From an uncultured Alphaproteobacteria bacterium (GTDB lineage Bacteria > Pseudomonadota > Alphaproteobacteria > CAAHEQ01 > UBA3637): DNA of 54,460 bases. Position 1 is the stretch's first letter; each line of letters starts with the position of its first letter. The stretch is from contig CASDQF010000014.1 of NCBI GenBank assembly GCA_949282845.1, positions 1-54,460 of the forward strand, written 5' to 3'. This document shows positions 22,321-54,460 of the stretch, piece by piece. The position numbers were made by a program, and so were the translations under genes. The notes under the pieces were generated by a model. The model had not been told where the DNA came from and did no database searches. It saw nothing but the letters and a program-made list of their open reading frames with translations.

Positions 22321-24789
22321 ATGAAAAAGCAGTCTGGTCGAAGCATGATAGAGATGCTGGGTGTATTGGTTTTAATAGGGGTATTAAGCGTAGCAGCGTT
22401 ATTTGGATTTACCTATGCGATGAATAGGCATAAAGCGAACGAGACAATCCATGATGTAATGCTGCGTGCGACGAATGTCCCGATGATAGATGAGTATTAT
22501 GTTGAGAGGACGGGAGATTACGAGTGGAAGTTTGCCGGTTTGCCAGAAGATGGACAGTTAGGTAGTTTTTATACGATGCATACTCTGGTATCGGATTTAA
22601 ATGAGTATGTTTATCGCGTTGTTGTTTCTGATGTTCCGAAGCGTGTTTGTCGACAAGTATTAAGTTTAAATCCGACGGACATAGATGCGATATATGTTGA
22701 AGGGGATAAGCCATCAGATGAAGAATGCCCCAATGAGTTAAACACAATGACTTTTTATTTTGATGAATTTGGAATTGGCGGTAATCCACCGGAACCACCC
22801 CTTCCTATACCAGATAATGATTGTGTGTCGAAGGCGACTTATTTCTATGGAGATAATTGTGAATATAAGGCGGAATGTTGTCTTGATCCTCTAGTAGACG
22901 GGTGTCCTCCTGAATGTACGCCAAAAAATTGTCCAACAGCGCCGGTTTGTGGTGAATGTGAAGAATATACGTATGATACAAAAGGTTGTCCTGTAGGATG
23001 TGAGAAAAAAACTTGTAATTCTTGTATGGAAGGTAAAATAGAGGTAGGGACAGATGCCTGTGGTTGTCCAATATGTCAATCTGAAGATTGTCCGGATATA
23101 GGTCCAAATCCTGGATGCTCGGAATTGATAGAAGATACGACATCTCTTCCTGGTGAAGTATGTTATACATGGGGGCCTACACAATTAACAACAAAGCAAA
23201 CGGGAGCGTGTTGTGATGAAGGCACGGTTGATTGTTGTCCGTTAACGGAAGATTGTTCTTGTAATCCAGAAGAAAATTGTGTGGAATGTTTTTGTCCGGA
23301 TCCGGGAGAAAGTCCTTGTGAGGGAGCTACTTTAGAGGATTATGATTATTTTTGTCCGGATGGTCGGGTCAAAACATGTCAAAAATGGGATTCTGAGGGA
23401 TGTTCATGTATAGATAACAACGATTGTAGCGGTTGTTCTCAATGTGTGAATGGTGTATGTGGACCGGATGAGATGACAACGGCTCAAACAGGAGAATGTT
23501 GTGATATGACAATTAATTGTTGTCCCTGGAAGGGAGAATGTCCCCAAAAATGTGATCCTTTGAGCTGTGATGCTGTTGTTGATACAGTTCCTCCGGGAGA
23601 AGAAGCTTGTTATGAACCAGTAGAGCCTGGTGCGGAGTTGTGTGGAGAGGTATGTCCTGGAGGGTATAAGAAGAAGGAATGTAAGCCTTGTGATGGAGGA
23701 TCTCGCCAAATAGGGACAGATGAGTGTGGTTGTCCAATATGCGAGCCTTGTGCACAGGATGAATTTTCTTGTGGACAAGAATGCTGTGTAGCAGCTAATC
23801 AGTTTTGTTGTGGTGAAAGCTGTTGTTCGGTAGGACACGCATGTTGTGACGGTGTTTGTTGCGGAGAAGATCAAACCTGTGGCAATAATGGTACTTGTTG
23901 CTCTCCGGCGGCTCCTTGTGGAGAATGTGAAGTTGAAGCAACGGATGCAAACGGATGTCCTATTTGTGAACCAGATCCAAATTGTTGTGCCTGTCCAGAT
24001 CCGGGGGAAAGTCCTTGTGAAGAAGCTGTTTTAGAGGATTATGATTATTCTTGTACAACAGGAGAGACTTTGACCTGTCAACGTTGGAATGTAGACGAAT
24101 GTTCTTGTACAACAGACGAAGATTGTGGTGCTTGTTATGAATGTATTGGTGGGGCATGTGTTTATCAAGAAGGGGGATTAGTTTGTGGAGAAGCTTGTTG
24201 TGATACATCAACACATTCTTGTTGTGGAGAGACATGCTGTCCTCTAGGACAAGAATGCTGCGGAGAAACGTGTTGTGGTGTCGGTGAGACTTGCAATAAT
24301 GGAGGTTGTGAACCTAAAGAAAGTCCTTGTCCTGAAGGGTCTTCCCCTGTTCGTCCCGGAGCAGCAAATGCTTTTGATTCTGGAGAAGTAGCAGATGATA
24401 CAAAGAAGCCTATTTGGTGCTGTAATGAAGGTTATGTTTCCGTTCATAAGTGTAGAGGAGTTTTATCTGATTGTTTAATTTCTTTTACCTGGAGAGGCAG
24501 CAATAAATGGTTAGAAGAAGAAAAATGTTGTAGGGATACTACAGATTATGGTGAAGCGTTTAGTTTTGGCAATATTGTTTTAGGTTATCAAGCAACAGAG
24601 CCAGACTGTTGTTATAGCAGTGATCATCCTGATGTTATTGGTTGGCCGAATCATGAGTATTGTTGTCCTGATCGAGGGTATCCATATTATGCTGGCGGTG
24701 GTGGAATTTCTTGTCATCCGGTGAAAGCTGAAATTAAACTGGTTAAAGGATATCCTAAGGATCCGTTTGAGTGGGATGATTGGTTATAA
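22321..24789 (+). CDS. Giant cysteine-rich prepilin-like protein, 822 aa
   Basis: The first 30 residues form a class III (type IV prepilin) signal: short leader MKKQSG, then RSMIEMLGVLVLIGVLSVAALF with Glu at +5 of the predicted cut. Residues about 30-165 form a pilin-like globular domain resembling that of the gene at 1-628. From about residue 185 to the end the protein is an array of cysteine-rich modules; I count 110 Cys in total. Recurrent modules include CGCPIC, CCGETCCPLGQECC (granulin-like spacing) and two copies of CPDPGESPCE...LEDYDY. Such a domain would need oxidative folding outside the cytoplasm. Function unknown; surface appendage tip, adhesin or cell-wall structure are possible. 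Stand-alone gene. Confidence 0.85.
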   Translation: MKKQSGRSMIEMLGVLVLIGVLSVAALFGFTYAMNRHKANETIHDVMLRATNVPMIDEYYVERTGDYEWKFAGLPEDGQLGSFYTMHTLVSDLNEYVYRVVVSDVPKRVCRQVLSLNPTDIDAIYVEGDKPSDEECPNELNTMTFYFDEFGIGGNPPEPPLPIPDNDCVSKATYFYGDNCEYKAECCLDPLVDGCPPECTPKNCPTAPVCGECEEYTYDTKGCPVGCEKKTCNSCMEGKIEVGTDACGCPICQSEDCPDIGPNPGCSELIEDTTSLPGEVCYTWGPTQLTTKQTGACCDEGTVDCCPLTEDCSCNPEENCVECFCPDPGESPCEGATLEDYDYFCPDGRVKTCQKWDSEGCSCIDNNDCSGCSQCVNGVCGPDEMTTAQTGECCDMTINCCPWKGECPQKCDPLSCDAVVDTVPPGEEACYEPVEPGAELCGEVCPGGYKKKECKPCDGGSRQIGTDECGCPICEPCAQDEFSCGQECCVAANQFCCGESCCSVGHACCDGVCCGEDQTCGNNGTCCSPAAPCGECEVEATDANGCPICEPDPNCCACPDPGESPCEEAVLEDYDYSCTTGETLTCQRWNVDECSCTTDEDCGACYECIGGACVYQEGGLVCGEACCDTSTHSCCGETCCPLGQECCGETCCGVGETCNNGGCEPKESPCPEGSSPVRPGAANAFDSGEVADDTKKPIWCCNEGYVSVHKCRGVLSDCLISFTWRGSNKWLEEEKCCRDTTDYGEAFSFGNIVLGYQATEPDCCYSSDHPDVIGWPNHEYCCPDRGYPYYAGGGGISCHPVKAEIKLVKGYPKDPFEWDDWL
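23293..23355 (+). repeat. 63-bp cysteine-module repeat, copy 1
   Basis: Encodes CPDPGESPCEGATLEDYDYF-C. The second copy is at 23992-24054. Both lie in the same frame of the 822-aa protein and are followed by related C-x-W/C-S-C stretches, which shows internal duplication of a larger module (about 700 bp apart). Confidence 0.8.
23992..24054 (+). repeat. 63-bp cysteine-module repeat, copy 2
   Basis: Encodes CPDPGESPCEEAVLEDYDYS-C, nearly identical to 23293-23355 with mostly conservative changes. Confidence 0.8.
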
Positions 24790-24811
24790 TGCTCATGAGG
24801 AATAATGATTT

Positions 24812-24838
24812 AAAAAGCTCCTTTTAAAGGAGCTTTTT
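24812..24838 (+). terminator. Rho-independent terminator after the cysteine-rich gene
   Basis: A near-perfect palindrome (AAAAAGCTCCTTT / AAAGGAGCTTTTT) ends in a T-run, 23 bp after the stop codon. Confidence 0.85.
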
Positions 24839-24867
24839 AATTATTTTTTCTTTGAGAATAGAAAAAT

Positions 24868-24972
24868 ATGCTCGTAAGAGATTTTTTAATGAAAATTCAT
24901 TATATTTTTGGGCCTATTATAGGGATTGTAGTCCCAATTTATGCTATTTTTATTATGTATGCAGAGTTTTAG
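24868..24972 (+). CDS. Possible 34-aa single-span membrane peptide
   Basis: A short frame between the cysteine-rich gene's terminator and rnpB encodes a peptide with a hydrophobic helix (IFGPIIGIVVPIYAIFIMY). An internal ATG would give 27 residues. The ribosome site is weak (GAGAAT or AAGAG) and no promoter is evident, so this could be a chance frame. No other gene is seen in 24839-25070. Confidence 0.25.
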   Translation: MLVRDFLMKIHYIFGPIIGIVVPIYAIFIMYAEF

Positions 24973-25029
24973 ATTATCGGAAAAGGTTATTTGCGTGATT
25001 TTATATTGTTATACAGAAAGCTTTTTAGA

Positions 25030-25060
25030 TTGACTGGACTTTTAGAGAAAAATCTGTTAT
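25030..25060 (+). promoter_or_regulatory. Candidate promoter of rnpB
   Basis: TTGACT (25030-25035), 19-bp spacer, TGTTAT (25055-25060), about 11 bp before the predicted 5' end of the RNA. The spacer is long. Confidence 0.45.
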
Positions 25061-25070
25061 CTTCTGTTTG

Positions 25071-25427
25071 TCAGAAGGTCAGGCAATCGCTGGGCTGTAT
25101 AAAGCCTGGAGGAAAGTCCGGACTTCTTGGGAATAGGGTGACGGCTAACGGCCGCCCGAGGTGACTCGAGGGAAAGTGCCACAGAAAATAGACCGCCTAC
25201 CTGTTGGTAGGTAAGGATGAAACGGCGAGGTAAGAGCTCACCGCTTTTCTGGTGACAGGAAAGGCATGGTAAACCCCACCTGAAGCAAGACCAAGAAAGA
25301 GGCGCTGATTAAATTCAGAAGGGAGTGTTCCCATCCCGCCCAATAGGTAGGTCGCAAGAGGCGTTCAGTAATGGACGTCCGAGATGAATGATTGCCCGAG
25401 ACAAAATCCGGCTTATCGATCTTCTGA
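25071..25427 (+). ncRNA. rnpB: RNase P RNA (type A)
   Basis: This is the catalytic RNA of RNase P, which matures tRNA 5' ends. Conserved blocks are readable in order: the P4 5' strand region GAGGAAAGTCCGGACTTC (about 25109-25126), GGTGACGGCTAACGGC-type P7-P10 region, GAAACGGCGAGG, the CCCCACCTGAAGCAAGACC region, and the 3' P4 strand near AGATGAATGATTGCCCG with ACAAAATCCGGCTTA before the end. The 5' TCAGAAGGTC pairs with the 3' GATCTTCTGA to form P1, which fixes both ends. It converges on gpsA with one base between them. Confidence 0.96.
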
Positions 25428-25428
25428 C

Positions 25429-26424
25429 TTAAAATCCTTCGTCTTTAAAGGGGCGACTGAGTAAGTCTTCCATTGCTTGTTGAATATTCATTCCGTGGAA
25501 CAAAACAGAGCAAACGGTTTCACATATTGGCATATCAATTTTAACTTCGGAAGCGCGCTTAAGAACGGCTGGGCAAGTTGACAATCCTTCTACGGTGCGA
25601 GTGTTTGTCTCTATGAGAGCTTGTGCTTTACCGGCCATACCGACTTCATACCCAAAGCTAAAATTACGTGATTGCGTACAGTTGGCGGTTAGAATTAAAT
25701 CGCCAAGACCGCACATGCCCATCATGGTTCTGGCATGACCGCCAAGAGCTTTAGAAAGGCGGATCATTTCGTTCAATCCTCGTGTGATTAAAGCGGCACG
25801 AGCATTATCTCCCAAACCGGCTCCTTCTGCGATACCTGCTGCGATGGCAAGAACATTTTTAACAGCTCCTCCGATTTGTGGGGAAATGATATCGGTGGTA
25901 GAATAGGGGCGGAAAAATTTTGTGCCAAGCATTTCTGTTAAAGCTTGAGCGATTGTTAAATCTGTGCACGCGATTGTTGTTGCTGTTGGTTTCATGAGAG
26001 CAACTTCATGTGCAAAGCCCGGGCCTGATAAAATAGCTGTTTGAGTGTCGGGAAGAATTTCAGCGGCGACTTCGCTTAACAACTGTCCTGTTTTATCTTC
26101 TATACCTTTAGCGCACAAGACCAAGAGAGTTTCTGGGCGAACAAAGGGCTTCATTTGTTCGAAGACAGAGCGATTAAATTGAGCTTTAATAGAAACCAGA
26201 ACAATATCAGCAAATTCAAGAACGTCTTTTAGATTTTGGGTTGCTCGGATTGTGTCCGGAAGAGGTAAATCCGGCATGTATAGTCGATTAACATGCGAAG
26301 CATTGATATCTCTAACGACATCCTCTTCACGAGCCCAAGCTAAAACATGGCATCCAGCACGAGCTGCTGTAATTGCTAAAGCTGTTCCCCATACACCAGC
26401 TCCGATGAGACCGATTTTTTTCAT
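25429..26424 (-). CDS. gpsA: Glycerol-3-phosphate dehydrogenase [NAD(P)+]
   Basis: The 331-residue enzyme opens with the Rossmann motif GLIGAGVWGTALA. Further markers are SIKAQFNR, LSGPGFAHEV and the catalytic-Lys segment GGAVKNVLAIAAGIAEG, followed by GLGDNARAALITRGLNEM. It reduces dihydroxyacetone phosphate to sn-glycerol-3-phosphate, the backbone precursor for phospholipids. Length and motifs are complete. Monocistronic on the minus strand, divergent from lgt. Confidence 0.96.
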   Translation of the reverse strand: MKKIGLIGAGVWGTALAITAARAGCHVLAWAREEDVVRDINASHVNRLYMPDLPLPDTIRATQNLKDVLEFADIVLVSIKAQFNRSVFEQMKPFVRPETLLVLCAKGIEDKTGQLLSEVAAEILPDTQTAILSGPGFAHEVALMKPTATTIACTDLTIAQALTEMLGTKFFRPYSTTDIISPQIGGAVKNVLAIAAGIAEGAGLGDNARAALITRGLNEMIRLSKALGGHARTMMGMCGLGDLILTANCTQSRNFSFGYEVGMAGKAQALIETNTRTVEGLSTCPAVLKRASEVKIDMPICETVCSVLFHGMNIQQAMEDLLSRPFKDEGF

Positions 26425-48416: not shown

Positions 48417-48830
48417 TTATTCTGTGTAAGTGAAAGATACTGTAACGTCTTCTTGATTTCCGCAGATATCTGTACTTCCAGTAAACAGAGCGTCGTTAGC
48501 ATGGATTGTATGTGTTTTTTCAAGCTTGGGTAAGACGGCTCGACAAACCTTCCATGGAACTTGGGTTGTCATGGTGAAGCGATAAGGTGTTTCTATTGTG
48601 ATATTCAGGATATCTACATCGGATAGCTTATAAGAGCTGCCGGCAGAGAGGCCTCGCCAATCATCGCGCAGGACCATTTCTTTTGTCGCATAGCTGACTT
48701 CTGAGGCAATATGAATAGCTTGTCCACTGGTTCTTGCTTGAACTAATCCCCATAGGCCGCCGATTGATAAAGCTCCCATGATGGCTAGGACAGCTAACAT
48801 TTCCAGCATTGAACGTCCGAGTTGTGTCAT
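48417..48830 (-). CDS. Prepilin-like (pseudopilin) protein, 137 aa
   Basis: The leader MTQLG is cut before RSMLEMLAVLAIMGALSIGGLWGL, with Glu at +5, followed by a small domain of about 100 residues with two Cys (WKVCRAVL and DICGNQ) and a terminal strand (VTVSFTYTE). The same layout as 44102-44569, and likewise inserted between unrelated housekeeping genes, converging on the nitroreductase gene with 2 bp between. Function unknown. Confidence 0.82.
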   Translation of the reverse strand: MTQLGRSMLEMLAVLAIMGALSIGGLWGLVQARTSGQAIHIASEVSYATKEMVLRDDWRGLSAGSSYKLSDVDILNITIETPYRFTMTTQVPWKVCRAVLPKLEKTHTIHANDALFTGSTDICGNQEDVTVSFTYTE

Positions 48831-48847
48831 TTTTTCTCCTTTAAAAT

Positions 48848-48876
48848 AAAATAAGATATTTCTAGGGTTGTTTCAA
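48848..48876 (-). promoter_or_regulatory. Promoter of the 137-aa pilin-like gene
   Basis: Minus strand: TTGAAA (48871-48876), 17-bp spacer, TATTTT (48848-48853), 17 bp upstream of the ATG, with an AAAGGAG site in between. Confidence 0.55.
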
Positions 48877-48918
48877 GAGCAAAGATAATTTTGCAAGAAA
48901 AAAGTAATTACTTTGTTA

Positions 48919-49773
48919 TTACTTTTTGATTAGATTTTCAGAAAAATCAGCAGCTTCTAAGGTTATATCAGGCTGCATTTGATGTCTAAACCATGTCGAT
49001 TGTCGTTTAGCATAATTGCGGGTCATTTGTTGAGCGTGTTCAATCGCTTTGCTTTCAGATAAAGAACCTTCCAGAACTTGTGTTAATTCGGCTACGCCGA
49101 TAGCTTGAAACACACCGCCGGTTTTATTTGGATTTTTATTTAACAATTCGGCGACTTGTTGTAAGGCACCTGCGGCCATCATCTGTGTGAAACGGTAATT
49201 ACATTGTGTATACAGTTTTTCTCTTGGAGGAAGAATGAGAAAGGTGTAAAAATCTCCTGAAATCAATGGCTTTGATGGAATTGATTGCCATTCGAATATT
49301 GTTTTTCCTGTTGTTAGTTCAACTTCTAAGGCACGACGCAATCGTTGTGGGTCTGAAAAACGTTTATCTCTGACTTTCGCTTGCACCTCATCAATAGGCA
49401 TTTGACGAACGGAACGGCGAATTTCTTCAGGAATGTCGGGAAGAGAAGTTAAACCTTTCGTCAGAGCCTTGATATAAAGTCCTGTTCCTCCAACAAAAAT
49501 AGGCGTTTCAATCTCTGAAATAATTTGTTTGACCTTTTCCAGCCATAAGGCGACGGAACTTTTTTCAAAAGCATTTAAAAAACCATAGAGTAAATGAGGA
49601 ACATTCTCTTGCTCTTCTGGCGTGGGGCGAGCCGTTAAAATGGGAACGTCTTCATAGACTTGTAAAGAATCTGCATTGATGATTGTCCCGTTGACGGCTT
49701 TGGCTAAACGGAGACTGAAAGCAGATTTACCGGAAGCGGTTGGTCCGGCGACCACATACATTTTTCTTTTCAT
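48919..49773 (-). CDS. miaA: tRNA dimethylallyltransferase
   Basis: A 284-residue enzyme: P-loop GPTASGKSAFSLRLA (about 9-23), INADSLQVYED with the catalytic Asp, VGGTGLYIKALTKG, and the RRALEVELTTGKTIFEWQ block. It adds the isopentenyl-type group to A37 of tRNAs, the substrate of MiaB. It is slightly shorter than the usual ~300-310 residues. Divergent from the LeuRS-like gene. Confidence 0.95.
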   Translation of the reverse strand: MKRKMYVVAGPTASGKSAFSLRLAKAVNGTIINADSLQVYEDVPILTARPTPEEQENVPHLLYGFLNAFEKSSVALWLEKVKQIISEIETPIFVGGTGLYIKALTKGLTSLPDIPEEIRRSVRQMPIDEVQAKVRDKRFSDPQRLRRALEVELTTGKTIFEWQSIPSKPLISGDFYTFLILPPREKLYTQCNYRFTQMMAAGALQQVAELLNKNPNKTGGVFQAIGVAELTQVLEGSLSESKAIEHAQQMTRNYAKRQSTWFRHQMQPDITLEAADFSENLIKK

Positions 49774-49819
49774 GATGTTATTTTATGTTCTTTTTATTTA
49801 AAAAATCATTAAAATGAAT

Positions 49820-49825
49820 TATACT
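49820..49825 (+). promoter_or_regulatory. -10 element of a near-leaderless LeuRS-like transcript
   Basis: TATACT sits 7 bp before the ATG at 49833, so transcription would start at or next to the start codon. A weak -35 (TTTAAA) lies 17 bp upstream. No ribosome site precedes the ATG. Confidence 0.35.
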
Positions 49826-49832
49826 CATCGAC

Positions 49833-50579
49833 ATGACAGATAGATATGCTTTTAGATATGTTGAAACAACTGTTCAGTCGTCTTGGCGGAACAGCTTTTG
49901 GGCTGAGGGGACAAACCTTTTGGATGACGTGTCCGCACGATTTAAAGGGGAAAAAGTTATTTTCAAAGATATATCCGCACCGGCCCTTTACTGGGGTGTT
50001 TTAACGCCTGTCTGCGAAGAAAAACCAGCCTTTGAACTGGTTGATAGCTATGGTGCCGATGCGGTTCGATTAGCAATGCTTCAACCGGGAGGTCTGTCCG
50101 AACAGACATTGACGGGAGCTTGGCGACTGATGAATGCATTGTGGTTAGGACTTCGGGATAAGACGGAAATAGCGCCTGATTGGAAAGATAAGGAATTGGT
50201 TCCGGCTTTGCATGCTTTACAGAAAGAGGACTTTTCTGATTTATTGATACACCTAAAAAGTCTTTTTCACAGAGGTCCAAGAGCATCTTTGCTTCCGTTA
50301 TTATATCCGTTTATACCACACTTAATAACGCATTTGATTCCGGATATACAGACTCGTATGTCTTCTTTTTATCAAAGATGGAAAACTCAACAGTTGCCGC
50401 CCGTTTTATTTATTGAGATAAACGGAGAACGTATTGCTGATTTTGTACCGAATAGTTTAGAAAACGAGGAAATAAAAAAAGAAGCCTTGTCTTTTCCTGT
50501 TGTTCAACATAAAATAAACGGACGTCCAGTGTGTGATGTTAAAATAATACCGTTAAAGGGAGTCAATTTTGTCATTTAA
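49833..50579 (+). CDS. Leucyl-tRNA synthetase-derived protein lacking the catalytic core, 248 aa
   Basis: The protein aligns by eye to the two ends of LeuRS. Residues 5-27 (YAFRYVETTVQSSWRNSFW) match the N-terminal YxxxxIExxWQxxW start. Residues 67-110 (ELVDSYGADAVRLAML, then TGAWRLMNALWLGLRD) match the region after KMSKS. Residues 112-248 match the anticodon-binding and C-terminal domains, ending in QHKINGRPVCDVKIIPLKGVNFVI-like sequence (LeuRS ends VxxVIVVPxKLVNIVV). The HIGH and KMSKS motifs, Rossmann core and editing domain (about 600 residues) are absent. The frame is intact and the usual leuS-lptE-holA order is kept. It cannot aminoacylate; a full leuS must exist elsewhere. Confidence 0.82.
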   Translation: MTDRYAFRYVETTVQSSWRNSFWAEGTNLLDDVSARFKGEKVIFKDISAPALYWGVLTPVCEEKPAFELVDSYGADAVRLAMLQPGGLSEQTLTGAWRLMNALWLGLRDKTEIAPDWKDKELVPALHALQKEDFSDLLIHLKSLFHRGPRASLLPLLYPFIPHLITHLIPDIQTRMSSFYQRWKTQQLPPVLFIEINGERIADFVPNSLENEEIKKEALSFPVVQHKINGRPVCDVKIIPLKGVNFVI

Positions 50580-51078
50580 GTCTGTTATATGTGTTTGTTT
50601 ATTTATCCTGACGGCTGCTTGCGGATGGACGCCGGTATACATGAAGAATAAACAAGGTGTTTCCGTTGTTGATGAGACGGCGCAAGTTCGAGTTGCAAAA
50701 GTACCTGAAGAAACTGGTCGTATTTTAGTTCGAACACTGAACAGTATGTTAAATCCGGATAATAAGGATGTTTCCAAAAAATATGAATTACAAATTGACT
50801 TATCTGAGACATTAAATACAGACCAAGGTATTTTAGGAGATAATACAGCGACCAGAGCAACAATGAGATTAACGGCTAAATATAAATTAGTGGAGTTGGG
50901 GACAAATCGTATTTTGTTGTCGGATAAGGCATATACTATTTCAAGTTATAATATCTTAACAGCTCCATATGCGACTTTGACGGCAGAGCAAACAACAAGG
51001 CGTCGTTTAGCTGAATTATTGGCAAATTCGATAGCTCTTAGAATGGCAAATTATTTTAAAGGACGGCAGTCGTCATGA
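50569..51078 (+). CDS. lptE: LPS-assembly lipoprotein LptE
   Basis: TTG start at 50569 with GGGAG at good spacing, overlapping the LeuRS-like gene by 11 nt; 169 residues. The lipobox is TAACGWTPVY (Cys 18), as in LptE (GCGFxPLY). The beta/alpha domain has LSETLNTDQGI and ends with TTRRRLAELLANSIALRM. LptE plugs the LptD barrel for LPS export. It overlaps holA by 4 nt (ATGA). Confidence 0.88.
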   Translation: MSFKSVICVCLFILTAACGWTPVYMKNKQGVSVVDETAQVRVAKVPEETGRILVRTLNSMLNPDNKDVSKKYELQIDLSETLNTDQGILGDNTATRATMRLTAKYKLVELGTNRILLSDKAYTISSYNILTAPYATLTAEQTTRRRLAELLANSIALRMANYFKGRQSS

Positions 51079-52103
51079 AAGTTAAAGCGGGTCAACTGAA
51101 AGCATTGGTTTCCGAGATTACGTCTTCTTTTAAAGGATTTTTGATTTATGGAACAGATGTCGGCGCTATAGATGAAGCGGCCACTCGTATTCAAAAGATG
51201 TTATCGGATAAAAAGCCGTTGGCTGTGACAGAATTAACAGTTGAGCGATTGCGAGAAACTCCGACTCTATTCTGGGATGAGGTTGGCGCATTATCTATGT
51301 TCGGCGATCGACATTTGATACGAATGAAAAATCCGACGGATACTTTTGCTAAGGAGTTGGAAACATATTTATCGTCAGATACGGGAGATGTATTTGTTTT
51401 AATCACTGCAGATAATTTGAATACAAAATCAGCCTTGGTTAAGTTATGCGATGAGGCGAAAAGAATAGGTGCTTTGGGATGTTATCCTCAGGAAGAGAAC
51501 GACATTCGAGCGACGATTTCGAGTATTTTATCTGAAAATGGTTTTGTGATTGAACCGGAAGCCTTAGTTTATTTGGCTCAGAATTTAGGAGCAGATAAAG
51601 GTATTACTTTATCTGAAGTGAATAAGTTAATGCTTTATATGGGGGATGAGAAACAAGTGACTTTAGCAGATGCTGAGGCTGTGATTGGAAATGGTTCTGC
51701 GGTTTCTATAGATGATTTAATGATGCATGTTTTATCTGGACAGGCTTCTTTGGTTCAAAGAGACTTTGAATTATTGCAGCAAGAAGGGATTGCGGCGGCA
51801 CAGATGACGCGAGCCTTTGTTTTGAAGTTAAATCAATTGCTTTTGGTTTTATCAAAGATGAAAAAAGGAGAGCCTGCCGATACAGCTATTCGAGGGACGC
51901 CACCATTTATTCCTTTTAAATATAGTTCTTTATGGAAACGTATTGTTTTAAGTTGGCCGGAAAGTTATACAATGGATGCTTTAAATATTATGTTGACGGC
52001 AGAAAAAGAGACAAAGAGTGGTTTGCCGGCTGATTTGATATGTAATCGAGCTTTAACTGGATTAACAGCCGCCGGTAAAAAATTTTTAGCAAGTCGGCGG
52101 TAG
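51075..52103 (+). CDS. holA: DNA polymerase III subunit delta
   Basis: A 342-residue clamp-loader subunit: N-terminal domain (FLIYGTDVGAIDEAATRIQ, about 20-38), LFWDEVGALSMFGDRHLIRMKNP, and the helical C-terminal region with IEPEALVYLAQNLGADKGITLSEVNKLMLY. There is no P-loop, as expected for delta. It opens the beta clamp with the tau/delta-prime complex. Last gene of the operon with the LeuRS-like gene and lptE. Confidence 0.92.
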   Translation: MKVKAGQLKALVSEITSSFKGFLIYGTDVGAIDEAATRIQKMLSDKKPLAVTELTVERLRETPTLFWDEVGALSMFGDRHLIRMKNPTDTFAKELETYLSSDTGDVFVLITADNLNTKSALVKLCDEAKRIGALGCYPQEENDIRATISSILSENGFVIEPEALVYLAQNLGADKGITLSEVNKLMLYMGDEKQVTLADAEAVIGNGSAVSIDDLMMHVLSGQASLVQRDFELLQQEGIAAAQMTRAFVLKLNQLLLVLSKMKKGEPADTAIRGTPPFIPFKYSSLWKRIVLSWPESYTMDALNIMLTAEKETKSGLPADLICNRALTGLTAAGKKFLASRR

Positions 52104-52122
52104 AAAATTGAAAGATATGATC

Positions 52123-52151
52123 AAAAAAAACGCTCCATTCGGAGCGTTTTT
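52123..52151. terminator. Bidirectional Rho-independent terminator
   Basis: The stem AAAACGCTCC / GGAGCGTTTT with ATTC loop is flanked by A- and T-runs; it serves holA and the convergent rpmJ. Confidence 0.85.
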
Positions 52152-52167
52152 ATCTTAACAATCGCGT

Positions 52168-52308
52168 TTATTTTTTTGTCGGCTTACCCTGACGCGCTTT
52201 ATAACGCGGGTTTACTTTGTTAATAATAAAGACACGGCCTTTTCTTTTAACAATTTTGTTGTTTTTATCGCGTTTAAAAGCCGCCTTTAAAGAGTTAACG
52301 ATTTTCAT
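52168..52308 (-). CDS. rpmJ: 50S ribosomal protein bL36 (zinc-free type)
   Basis: A 46-residue basic protein starting [17 protein letters not shown] with [22 protein letters not shown], the bL36 type common in Alphaproteobacteria. The Cys/His zinc ligands of classic bL36 are absent, which marks the C-minus (YkgO-like) paralog. Ribosome site AAGGTGG. Stand-alone gene. Confidence 0.93.
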
Positions 52309-52386
52309 AATACCACCTTACTTCATTTTATCGGAAACTTGAGAGGGTAAAATACAGGATTTTGAAAAGCTTGTCAACAAAAAACT

Positions 52387-53373
52387 TTATTTGTCGAAAA
52401 AACCAACGACTTCGATGTGTTTAGAATAAATAAATTGATCAACAGGGATAACTTGATGAAGTTGCCATCCGCCGTTTACTAAAAGGGCAGCATCTCTTGC
52501 AAAAGTTTGTGGGTTGCATGAGACCATAACAAGATGTTTTAGCTTCATTTCTGCCAAAATTCGACATTGTGCTTCAGCGCCTGCACGAGGAGGATCCAGG
52601 ACAACAGCATCGCTCTTTTGAATTTCTTCCGTAGTTAAAGGGTTTCGAAACAAATCTCGTTCTTCGGCGTCAATATTTTGTCGCCGAAGAGCTTTAATCG
52701 ATTCGCTCGTGGAATCGTAACCTTTAACGATGAAGCCAGCTTGATGCAACGGACGTGTAAAAGTTCCTTGACCACAAAATAAATCTAAGACGCGGTGGCA
52801 ACCTTCTAGTCCTTTTAAGACGAGTTTTATTAAAGTTTCTTCTCCGATTTGCGATGGTTGTAAAAAGACATCTGGAGGAAAGGGCAGCGCATGGAGCTGA
52901 TAAATCGGTTCGTCCTGATAATGAAAACGAGCAATGGCATTATTTTGGCAAAAGGTTGTTAGTGCTTCTAATTTGGTAAGAGGTAAGTTGTGTTCTTTAT
53001 CTTTCCAAACAACATCAATACCCCAAGGTGTATCCGTGACAGCTATATCTCCTGATGCATGTAAGGCTTTAACGACTTCTCTGAGAGGTTGAATCAGTTT
53101 TTCTAGAGAAGGCGTCAGAACTAAACATGACGTGATGGGTACAATAATATGACTTTTAATCGCATTGAAGCCGAATATTCCATTTTTCATGGCAAAAGTT
53201 GCTCGTCGACGTGTTCCTGAAGGAAGAGCAATGACATCATCAACAGGCGGTGTTAGACCTCGATGCCGTAAAGCTTCTATAACGACATTTTTTTTCATGA
53301 TGAGATAATCGGACGACGATAAATCTTGAAATAAACATCCTCCACATTTGCCGAAAAAAGGGCATAGTTTCAT
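52387..53373 (-). CDS. RlmC/RlmD/TrmA-family 5-methyluridine RNA methyltransferase
   Basis: A 328-residue enzyme. The iron-sulfur Cys cluster is at the N-terminus (CPFFGKCGGCLFQDL), and the SAM domain has VLDLFCGQGTFT. The catalytic Cys lies in MVSCNPQTFARDA, after the VVLDPPRAGAE motif. There is no TRAM domain, so it is shorter than RlmD. It methylates C5 of a uridine in rRNA or tRNA; the exact target is uncertain. It overlaps the upstream membrane protein by 4 nt. Confidence 0.88.
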   Translation of the reverse strand: MKLCPFFGKCGGCLFQDLSSSDYLIMKKNVVIEALRHRGLTPPVDDVIALPSGTRRRATFAMKNGIFGFNAIKSHIIVPITSCLVLTPSLEKLIQPLREVVKALHASGDIAVTDTPWGIDVVWKDKEHNLPLTKLEALTTFCQNNAIARFHYQDEPIYQLHALPFPPDVFLQPSQIGEETLIKLVLKGLEGCHRVLDLFCGQGTFTRPLHQAGFIVKGYDSTSESIKALRRQNIDAEERDLFRNPLTTEEIQKSDAVVLDPPRAGAEAQCRILAEMKLKHLVMVSCNPQTFARDAALLVNGGWQLHQVIPVDQFIYSKHIEVVGFFDK

Positions 53374-54104
53374 TTATTGCTCCGAGTTTTGGCAGCAATT
53401 GTTCCAGCAAAATGCAGGAGGATGAAAAACAAATAGATACGTACCAATAAATCAATTGTTAATAGTATTAAGTTAACAGCCCAGAAAAGTGTGGATTGTT
53501 CTAAATTGACTAAAGAAAAAGAAAGCCAATTTAAAAAGCGTCCCCAATAGGAAAAAAATAAACTTAATACAACCGTAGCACCCGTAATATCTAAGACATG
53601 TAGCCAGTTTTTTTTGAAATATTCAAAAGTGTGTCGGAACGCCGGCAATTTATTTTCAGGAAGCCGCTGAATGAATAGGAGATCATACGGAATGACAATA
53701 ATCAGTAAATAAGCCAGTAAAATAAATGCTGCCAGATGAGGAGTTGTCATGCTAAAAGGAAGAATAAGACATGTTCCCAAGACCATTAAACCAGATTGAC
53801 ATGCGACAAAAGAGAAGCCGGCTTTGAATAAACTTTTAAAAGAAATATCCTCCCATGGATTTTTTTTGTTTTCTTGGACATGGACAGCAAACATCAATCC
53901 GTGTCCTATAAAGAAAACAGCAAAGAATAGAAAAATAAACGAACTGATGACATTCTCGAAAAATAATATTTCTATTGATAAATCTTGGAAAAAAGGTCGA
54001 GAGAAAAGGAAAAAAAGGAAAGAATAAACCAACAAAAGACAAGCTGTCCAGCCTAAGACGGGACGACCACAAGTATCTTTTAAGAGTTTTTTTAGAAAAG
54101 ACAT
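53370..54104 (-). CDS. Polytopic membrane protein, 244 aa
   Basis: Six hydrophobic segments with short loops (about 18-36, 49-73, 91-112, 120-145, 172-190, 207-240) and a basic C-terminus (KTRSNK). No catalytic motif is recognised. It follows the partial membrane gene by 9 bp and overlaps the methyltransferase gene by 4 nt, so the three form one unit on the minus strand. Function unknown. Confidence 0.75.
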   Translation of the reverse strand: MSFLKKLLKDTCGRPVLGWTACLLLVYSFLFFLFSRPFFQDLSIEILFFENVISSFIFLFFAVFFIGHGLMFAVHVQENKKNPWEDISFKSLFKAGFSFVACQSGLMVLGTCLILPFSMTTPHLAAFILLAYLLIIVIPYDLLFIQRLPENKLPAFRHTFEYFKKNWLHVLDITGATVVLSLFFSYWGRFLNWLSFSLVNLEQSTLFWAVNLILLTIDLLVRIYLFFILLHFAGTIAAKTRSNK

Positions 54105-54113
54105 TTCGCCTCC

Positions 54114-54460
54114 TTATAATTTATGAAAATAGTTATCTTGATTTTTATTGTTATGAGCATCTAAAAAAGTATTATATTGTTCTTCAATAGGAGCCAAACG
54201 CTCAGGATTTGAAGCTTTAACATCACTTTGAGGTGTTTTTTGTTTTTGATAGACAAAGCCTGTTTGAGCAAATAAATGAGCGATTGTTGCAAAATAAGCG
54301 CTCCATAGGAAGAAAAAGAAAAATAAACCAAAAACATTTATCATCAGAGGAATGATTAAATCGTTTGACCACATAGGTAGATAATGTGTTAATATCAGCC
54401 ATAAAAACGCAAACGGGATTGTCGGCAGGAAAAACCATAATCTGGCCGGAGAAAATAAGA
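54114..54460 (-). CDS. Membrane protein, 5' end outside window
   Basis: The frame is open across the right edge (115 codons visible including the stop), so the ATG at 54374 is internal. Two TM helices are seen (WFFLPTIPFAFLWLILTHYLP region and INVFGLFFFFFLWSAYFATIAHL), with a polar C-terminal tail of about 50 residues. Genes 53370-54104 and this one may encode partners. Function not recognised. Confidence 0.7.
   Translation of the reverse strand, partial: LFSPARLWFFLPTIPFAFLWLILTHYLPMWSNDLIIPLMINVFGLFFFFFLWSAYFATIAHLFAQTGFVYQKQKTPQSDVKASNPERLAPIEEQYNTFLDAHNNKNQDNYFHKL

Follow-up and report, generated by a model that had tools for sequence, protein, structure and literature searches.

A core-deleted leucyl-tRNA synthetase gene under purifying selection in the former leuS position of a family of Alphaproteobacteria

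In one clade of a family of small-genome Alphaproteobacteria, a compact gene derived from leucyl-tRNA synthetase (LeuRS) occupies the position of native leuS, while the full-length leuS, encoded elsewhere in the genome, is of non-native type. This compact gene, termed the remnant here, has lost most of the catalytic core, and codon comparisons show that its protein is under purifying selection. The reading preferred here, which takes origin and function together and is given an even chance of being right, is that a displaced native leuS was retained as a non-catalytic RNA-binding protein. Horizontal transfer frequently supplants essential synthetases, after which the original gene would be expected to disappear; in the remnant's family, what becomes of such a displaced enzyme can be followed directly.

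The remnant and its operon position

The window, that is, the whole stretch of DNA that was analysed, comprises 54,460 nt of contig CASDQF010000014.1 (assembly GCA_949282845.1; UBA3637, Alphaproteobacteria). Near its end, an open reading frame at 49833..50579 on the forward strand starts with ATG and runs for 248 codons with no internal stop. The frame and its surroundings are as follows:

48919..49773, reverse strand: miaA, the divergent neighbour and slot marker across the family (IPP transferase, Pfam E 7e-57; slot survey)
49820..49825, forward strand: candidate -10 element TATACT, 7 bases before the ATG (promoter scan, weak)
49833..50579, forward strand: core-less LeuRS-derived gene, 248 aa (open reading frame, orthologues, profile match to native LeuRS, LeuRS-only confident fold matches)
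50569..51078, forward strand: lptE, overlapping the remnant by 11 bp, with its ribosome-binding site AAAGGGAG inside the remnant's last codons
51075..52103, forward strand: holA, encoding DNA polymerase III delta (TIGR01128, 135.5 bits against a cut-off of 80)

An earlier note on this DNA, made from the sequence alone, had described the gene as coupled by overlap to lptE and holA in the place where leuS is normally found, and both observations hold. The remnant overlaps lptE by 11 bp (11-14 bp in every intact copy) and lptE overlaps holA by 4 bp. Outgroup Alphaproteobacteria have a native leuS upstream of holA, in most cases separated from it by no more than the space for lptE, and the remnant, between miaA and lptE-holA, stands in that same position. 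Since the lptE ribosome-binding site sits in the remnant's last codons, the place that ancestral leuS had in the operon appears to have been kept; the remnant would share with lptE-holA an operon that comes down from leuS and would be expressed together with them.

The spacing of the TATACT element is compatible with a leaderless mRNA for the remnant, which is therefore possible. The promoter call itself is weak because promoter-like sites in the region are no commoner than in shuffled sequence. An Rfam scan of 48500-54460 gave no match.

LeuRS homology and predicted structure

The remnant is almost invisible to single-sequence search. A Pfam search with the protein gave no match, and the NCBIfam model of bacterial LeuRS (leuS_bact, TIGR00396) aligned weakly, at 18.9 bits and E 3e-4, with residues 152-248 covering model positions 738-842 of 843; that whole-protein score does not reach the curated cut-off of 548.4 bits. 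A profile built from the alignment of eight remnant orthologues and searched against the class Alphaproteobacteria recovered full-length native LeuRS throughout the class (best E 4.5e-20, profile columns 71-252). Profile search, alignment and fold search all place the LeuRS anticodon-binding bundle and C-terminal domain in the remnant. The HIGH and KMSKS motifs are absent from the alignment of all eight remnants, as are the CP1 editing domain and the rest of the catalytic core when the remnant is aligned with native LeuRS. The retained pieces, all on the forward strand, are:

49839..49886: N-terminal helix of LeuRS, residues 3-18, RYAFRxxE corresponding to LeuRS RYNFRETEQKW (alignment; helix in the model)
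49914..49949: post-HIGH helix, residues 28-39, xLLxDIxARxxG corresponding to LeuRS YTLGDVVARYKRxxG, with HIGH itself deleted (alignment, invariant residues)
49950..50030: linker with invariant G55, residues 40-66, the junction across the remaining core, CP1 and KMSKS (alignment; G55 present in 18 of 19 native LeuRS)
50031..50162: stem-contact fold with YGADAxR, residues 67-110 (alignments)
50163..50393: shortened anticodon-binding helix bundle with PFxPHL, residues 111-187 (alignments, model)
50394..50576: complete LeuRS C-terminal domain, residues 188-248 (NCBIfam match to model 738-842; regional conservation)

The remnant alignment contains 19 invariant columns. All eight remnants carry D32, R36, G39, G55, G74, D76, R79, P159, P162 and H163, residues that 18-19 of 19 native LeuRS share; E217 and K227 are constant among the remnants only. 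The C-terminal domain, which ends in GKxxNxVV, is the best conserved region among intact orthologues.

Compared with native alphaproteobacterial LeuRS (TIGR00396), the remnant thus shares the slot before lptE-holA, the N-terminal helix, the post-HIGH helix, YGADAxR, the bundle and the C-terminal domain. Unlike native LeuRS, which has 800-930 residues, it has about 250 and lacks HIGH, KMSKS, CP1 and the zinc and leucine-specific insertions. Judged from these losses, it cannot charge tRNA. The open reading frame, profile, alignment and fold matches agree with the earlier description of an intact 248-aa LeuRS-derived frame without HIGH, KMSKS or editing domain. The accompanying statement that no Rossmann core remains is right for HIGH and most of the core but not for the post-HIGH helix, where D32, R36 and G39 are kept; by alignment, the remnant retains some catalytic-domain material and so is not wholly core-free. 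Because this helix survives between two gaps, no fewer than two internal deletions must have occurred, which rules out the single large deletion originally envisaged.

An AlphaFold2 model of the remnant, made from the eight sequences, has a mean pLDDT of 84.7 and a pTM of 0.80, with confidence lowest, apart from the N-terminus, in the linker at residues 40-66. All 27 Foldseek matches in the PDB with E<=0.001 are LeuRS, the best being Agrobacterium AgnB2 (E 1.3e-9), so the structural comparison that the note had proposed came out in favour of LeuRS. TM-scores are low (0.32-0.43 by query length), and the domains therefore match LeuRS in order rather than in one rigid arrangement. The model of the most divergent copy, from G008, is less certain (pLDDT 76.9), and its matches with E<=0.001 are likewise all LeuRS. 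An OB-fold tRNA-binding domain of the Arc1p/Trbp111 type was not among the confident fold matches, which were to LeuRS only.

Replacement of native leuS, distribution and selection

The source genome, G000, has one full leuS, on contig C36 at 23326-25833; it is complete (model positions 1-843) and is the separate full-length gene whose existence had been predicted. A split-LeuRS partner, that is, a subunit without the C-terminal half, was not found, the other leuS of the genome being complete. Outside the family, the nearest relatives of the C36 gene include Bacilli, Victivallales, Lentisphaeria and Spirochaetales, at 54-60% identity, and its relatives within the family (type I) group with Bacilli/Spirochaete-like LeuRS in the tree. 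Other family members, including G008, have a second type of about 810 aa and about 1000 bits that also differs from native alphaproteobacterial LeuRS. Native full-length alphaproteobacterial LeuRS was seen in no family genome, and the family seems to be without it altogether. Because the full leuS is not alphaproteobacterial, the remnant has the appearance of a native gene that was displaced, not of a duplicate degraded within the lineage; the duplicate origin that had been offered as an alternative is unsupported.

Within the family (G000-G066; leuS e.g. L022, L047), genus g2 contains both foreign LeuRS types, and so do the remnant carriers taken together, from which it follows that leuS was exchanged more than once. 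The direction and timing of these transfers we infer. Since the remnant occurs with both types, a partnership with one specific foreign LeuRS is unlikely, and the idea is weakened further by type I LeuRS, which is of full length and has its own C-terminal domain where it accompanies the remnant.

The survey covered 43 genomes of the family. Intact remnants of about 250 aa lie in the same slot in eight of them, the source genome and seven others, from four genera: G000, G001 and G002 (g1), G010 and G019 (g9), G017 and G023 (g8), and G008 (g7). In 32 other family genomes, lptE-holA follows directly after divergent miaA in nearly all slots that were read; G006 differs upstream. The genomes are fragmented drafts, three of the relatives being metagenome-assembled, and an assembly deletion inside a full leuS at the slot would be the kind of error that such drafts can contain. 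One short form with a shared architecture is, however, present in eight strongly diverged assemblies, the miaA-lptE slot contains no full leuS in any family genome where it was read, and full leuS is present elsewhere. The orthologues refute this artefact, which had been named as what would overturn the finding, and it is left with next to no probability.

In the holA tree, the nine carriers, including one with a truncated copy (G009), form one clade (support 0.998) that is sister to the 32 other family genomes, and the whole family has support of 0.986. The remnant proteins likewise form one clade in a tree of the C-terminal region (UFBoot 100), on a long branch that gives no placement among LeuRS groups. 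These gene trees rest on short alignments. The truncated copy in G009 (g8; L082, in the slot upstream of holA) has 205 aa; most of its C-terminal domain has been deleted, and what is left of that domain is out of frame. Over the first 188 residues, its similarity to G017 and G023 is on a par with that between these two. Either the loss is recent or the function of the remnant does not depend on that domain. One family thus shows displaced leuS in three states: erased in nearly all of the sister clade, core-less and under selection in four genera, and truncated in G009.

Selection on the protein is evident from codon comparisons within genera. Between G000 and G001, codon positions 1, 2 and 3 differ at 0.29, 0.17 and 0.54, with dN 0.26, dS 2.2 and dN/dS about 0.12; the corresponding values are dN 0.45, dS 1.07 and dN/dS about 0.42 for G010-G019, and dN 0.47, dS 2.7 and dN/dS about 0.17 for G017-G023, all of these ratios being rough because dS is near saturation. 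In 1000 neutral simulations run to the observed third-position divergence, sequences acquired 14-19 stops on average and fell to 12-22% identity, and the frame remained open in none, whereas the observed genes have no stops and 48-66% identity. Orthologues in four genera, codon bias, dN/dS of roughly 0.1-0.4 and the simulations together uphold the suggestion that the gene survives under selection. Constraint is weaker than on the neighbouring genes, the remnant's dN being about 1.3-3.3 times that of lptE, holA and miaA in the compared pairs.

A slowly decaying pseudogene whose frame is open by coincidence would agree with this faster evolution, with the decaying copy in G009 and with complete loss in the sister clade. 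Neither inactivating mutations nor neutral evolution was found, however: apart from the truncated G009 copy, the frame is free of stops in eight genomes of four genera at identities down to 24-27%, none of the 1000 neutral runs stayed open, and dN/dS below 1 is indicated within genera. Decay is accordingly held to be highly improbable. A translated leader, kept open only to bring ribosomes to lptE-holA and encoding a protein that does little, would explain why all intact copies overlap lptE by 11-14 bp and why its ribosome-binding site lies in their last codons. A leader requires only an open frame, yet here the amino acids are constrained, as seen in the invariant columns and the codon-position bias, and in G009 and the genomes of the sister clade lptE must be expressed with no such overlap. 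The proposal of simply a leader that keeps coupling therefore fits poorly with constraint at the amino-acid level and is considered improbable.

Between G000 and G002 (L078), miaA and the remnant are near-identical (dS 0.03 and 0.12), and lptE and holA have dS of 0.7-1.2 (48919-52103). There seems to be a recent recombination tract between these two species, with an end near the remnant.

Proposed origin, function and relation to known proteins

In the proposed course of events, acquisition of a foreign full-length leuS would have made the native alphaproteobacterial gene no longer essential. Within one of the family's two main branches, this gene would have escaped erasure; instead, two or more internal deletions would have removed its catalytic centre, its editing domain and the KMSKS loop. 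The product would be a compact protein of about 250 aa consisting of the N-terminal helix, one Rossmann helix, the stem-contact fold, the helix bundle and the C-terminal domain. It may act as a non-catalytic RNA-binding protein, most likely for tRNA-Leu or a tRNA-like RNA, as a tRNA chaperone or regulator rather than a synthetase. The earlier note had likewise put forward tRNA-Leu binding, and translational regulation of lptE-holA, as possible roles.

An RNA-binding role, with tRNA-Leu as the first candidate, appears most likely because the non-catalytic, tRNA-contacting half of LeuRS is what remains, and because of published work on the C-terminal domain and on archaeal LeuRS. When taken from human mitochondrial LeuRS, the C-terminal domain by itself binds tRNA-Leu(UUR) (KD about 0.6 uM) and can rescue tRNA mutants (PMC3927953); in Agrobacterium AgnB2, the same domain makes contact with the tRNA-Leu variable loop (PMC5059758). 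The remnant would be a natural counterpart to the laboratory result that the LeuRS C-terminal domain alone binds and stabilises tRNA. A more specific version, in which the left-behind tRNA-binding half acts in trans as a chaperone or regulator of tRNA-Leu and eases the foreign synthetase's use of native tRNAs, is put forward only tentatively and is thought unlikely.

Several observations count against the preferred reading. Net charge varies from -2 to +11 and pI from 6.2 to 9.6 among orthologues, which speaks against RNA binding. The G009 copy has no C-terminal domain, and its first 188 residues do not diverge faster. Constraint is below that of lptE, holA and miaA, and the sister clade does without the gene. 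The main rival to RNA binding is a selected protein with a non-RNA function: it would offer the LeuRS helix bundle as a binding surface and so scaffold or accompany some other protein, perhaps a different synthetase or a product of its own operon. The unconserved charge would suit this, E217 and K227 hint at a new surface, and G009 keeps the helical part after loss of the C-terminal domain. Yet that domain, which contacts RNA in LeuRS, is the best conserved among intact copies, and the occurrence with both foreign types makes one particular LeuRS partner unlikely. A protein-binding role is possible, if doubtful.

The proposed retention of a displaced leuS as an RNA-binding protein can be set beside several known systems. 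In the split LeuRS of Aquifex, the beta subunit carries KMSKS and joins alpha to make a working enzyme. The remnant differs from Aquifex beta in having no KMSKS, and the working LeuRS here is complete by itself. AlaX corresponds to an editing domain, and Arc1p and Trbp111 use an OB-fold. Like these three, Glu-Q-RS is a synthetase piece or associate acting as a stand-alone protein. In Glu-Q-RS the core is retained and the anticodon domain is missing (PMC9437257), the converse of the remnant. LeuRS-I of Sulfolobaceae and LeuRS2 of Halobacteria reportedly bind tRNA-Leu with little or no charging, and their functions are unknown (PMC9437257). Each is, like the remnant, an extra LeuRS-derived protein, but they are second LeuRS with residual catalysis (LeuRS-I still makes leucyl-adenylate; PMC9437257), whereas the remnant is core-deleted and looks like a displaced native copy. 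The human mitochondrial C-terminal construct is likewise a non-catalytic part of LeuRS that acts alone, stabilising mutant tRNAs, but it is a 67-residue laboratory piece without the helix bundle (PMC3927953), whereas the remnant is a natural gene.

With its descent from a synthetase, its lost catalytic motifs, the full synthetase alongside it and selection across species, the remnant has the features of an aaRS-like protein, and we call it a member of the aaRS-derived non-catalytic proteins. To our knowledge, no such protein has been described earlier, and a literature search restricted to open-licence papers returned no description of one.

Two minor observations concern other genes. The class-wide profile search gave further short LeuRS frames, of which one was read: in another alphaproteobacterium (G414, 97% complete; L163, C3:8800-15500), native leuS is not core-less but split over several frames, through either sequencing error or a recent pseudogene. 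In the window itself, open reading frames at 22321-24789 (forward strand) and 48417-48830 (reverse strand) have a common prepilin-like start, GRSM(I/L)EMLxVLxxxGxLS; one of them, at 822 aa, is unusually large for a pilin-like protein.
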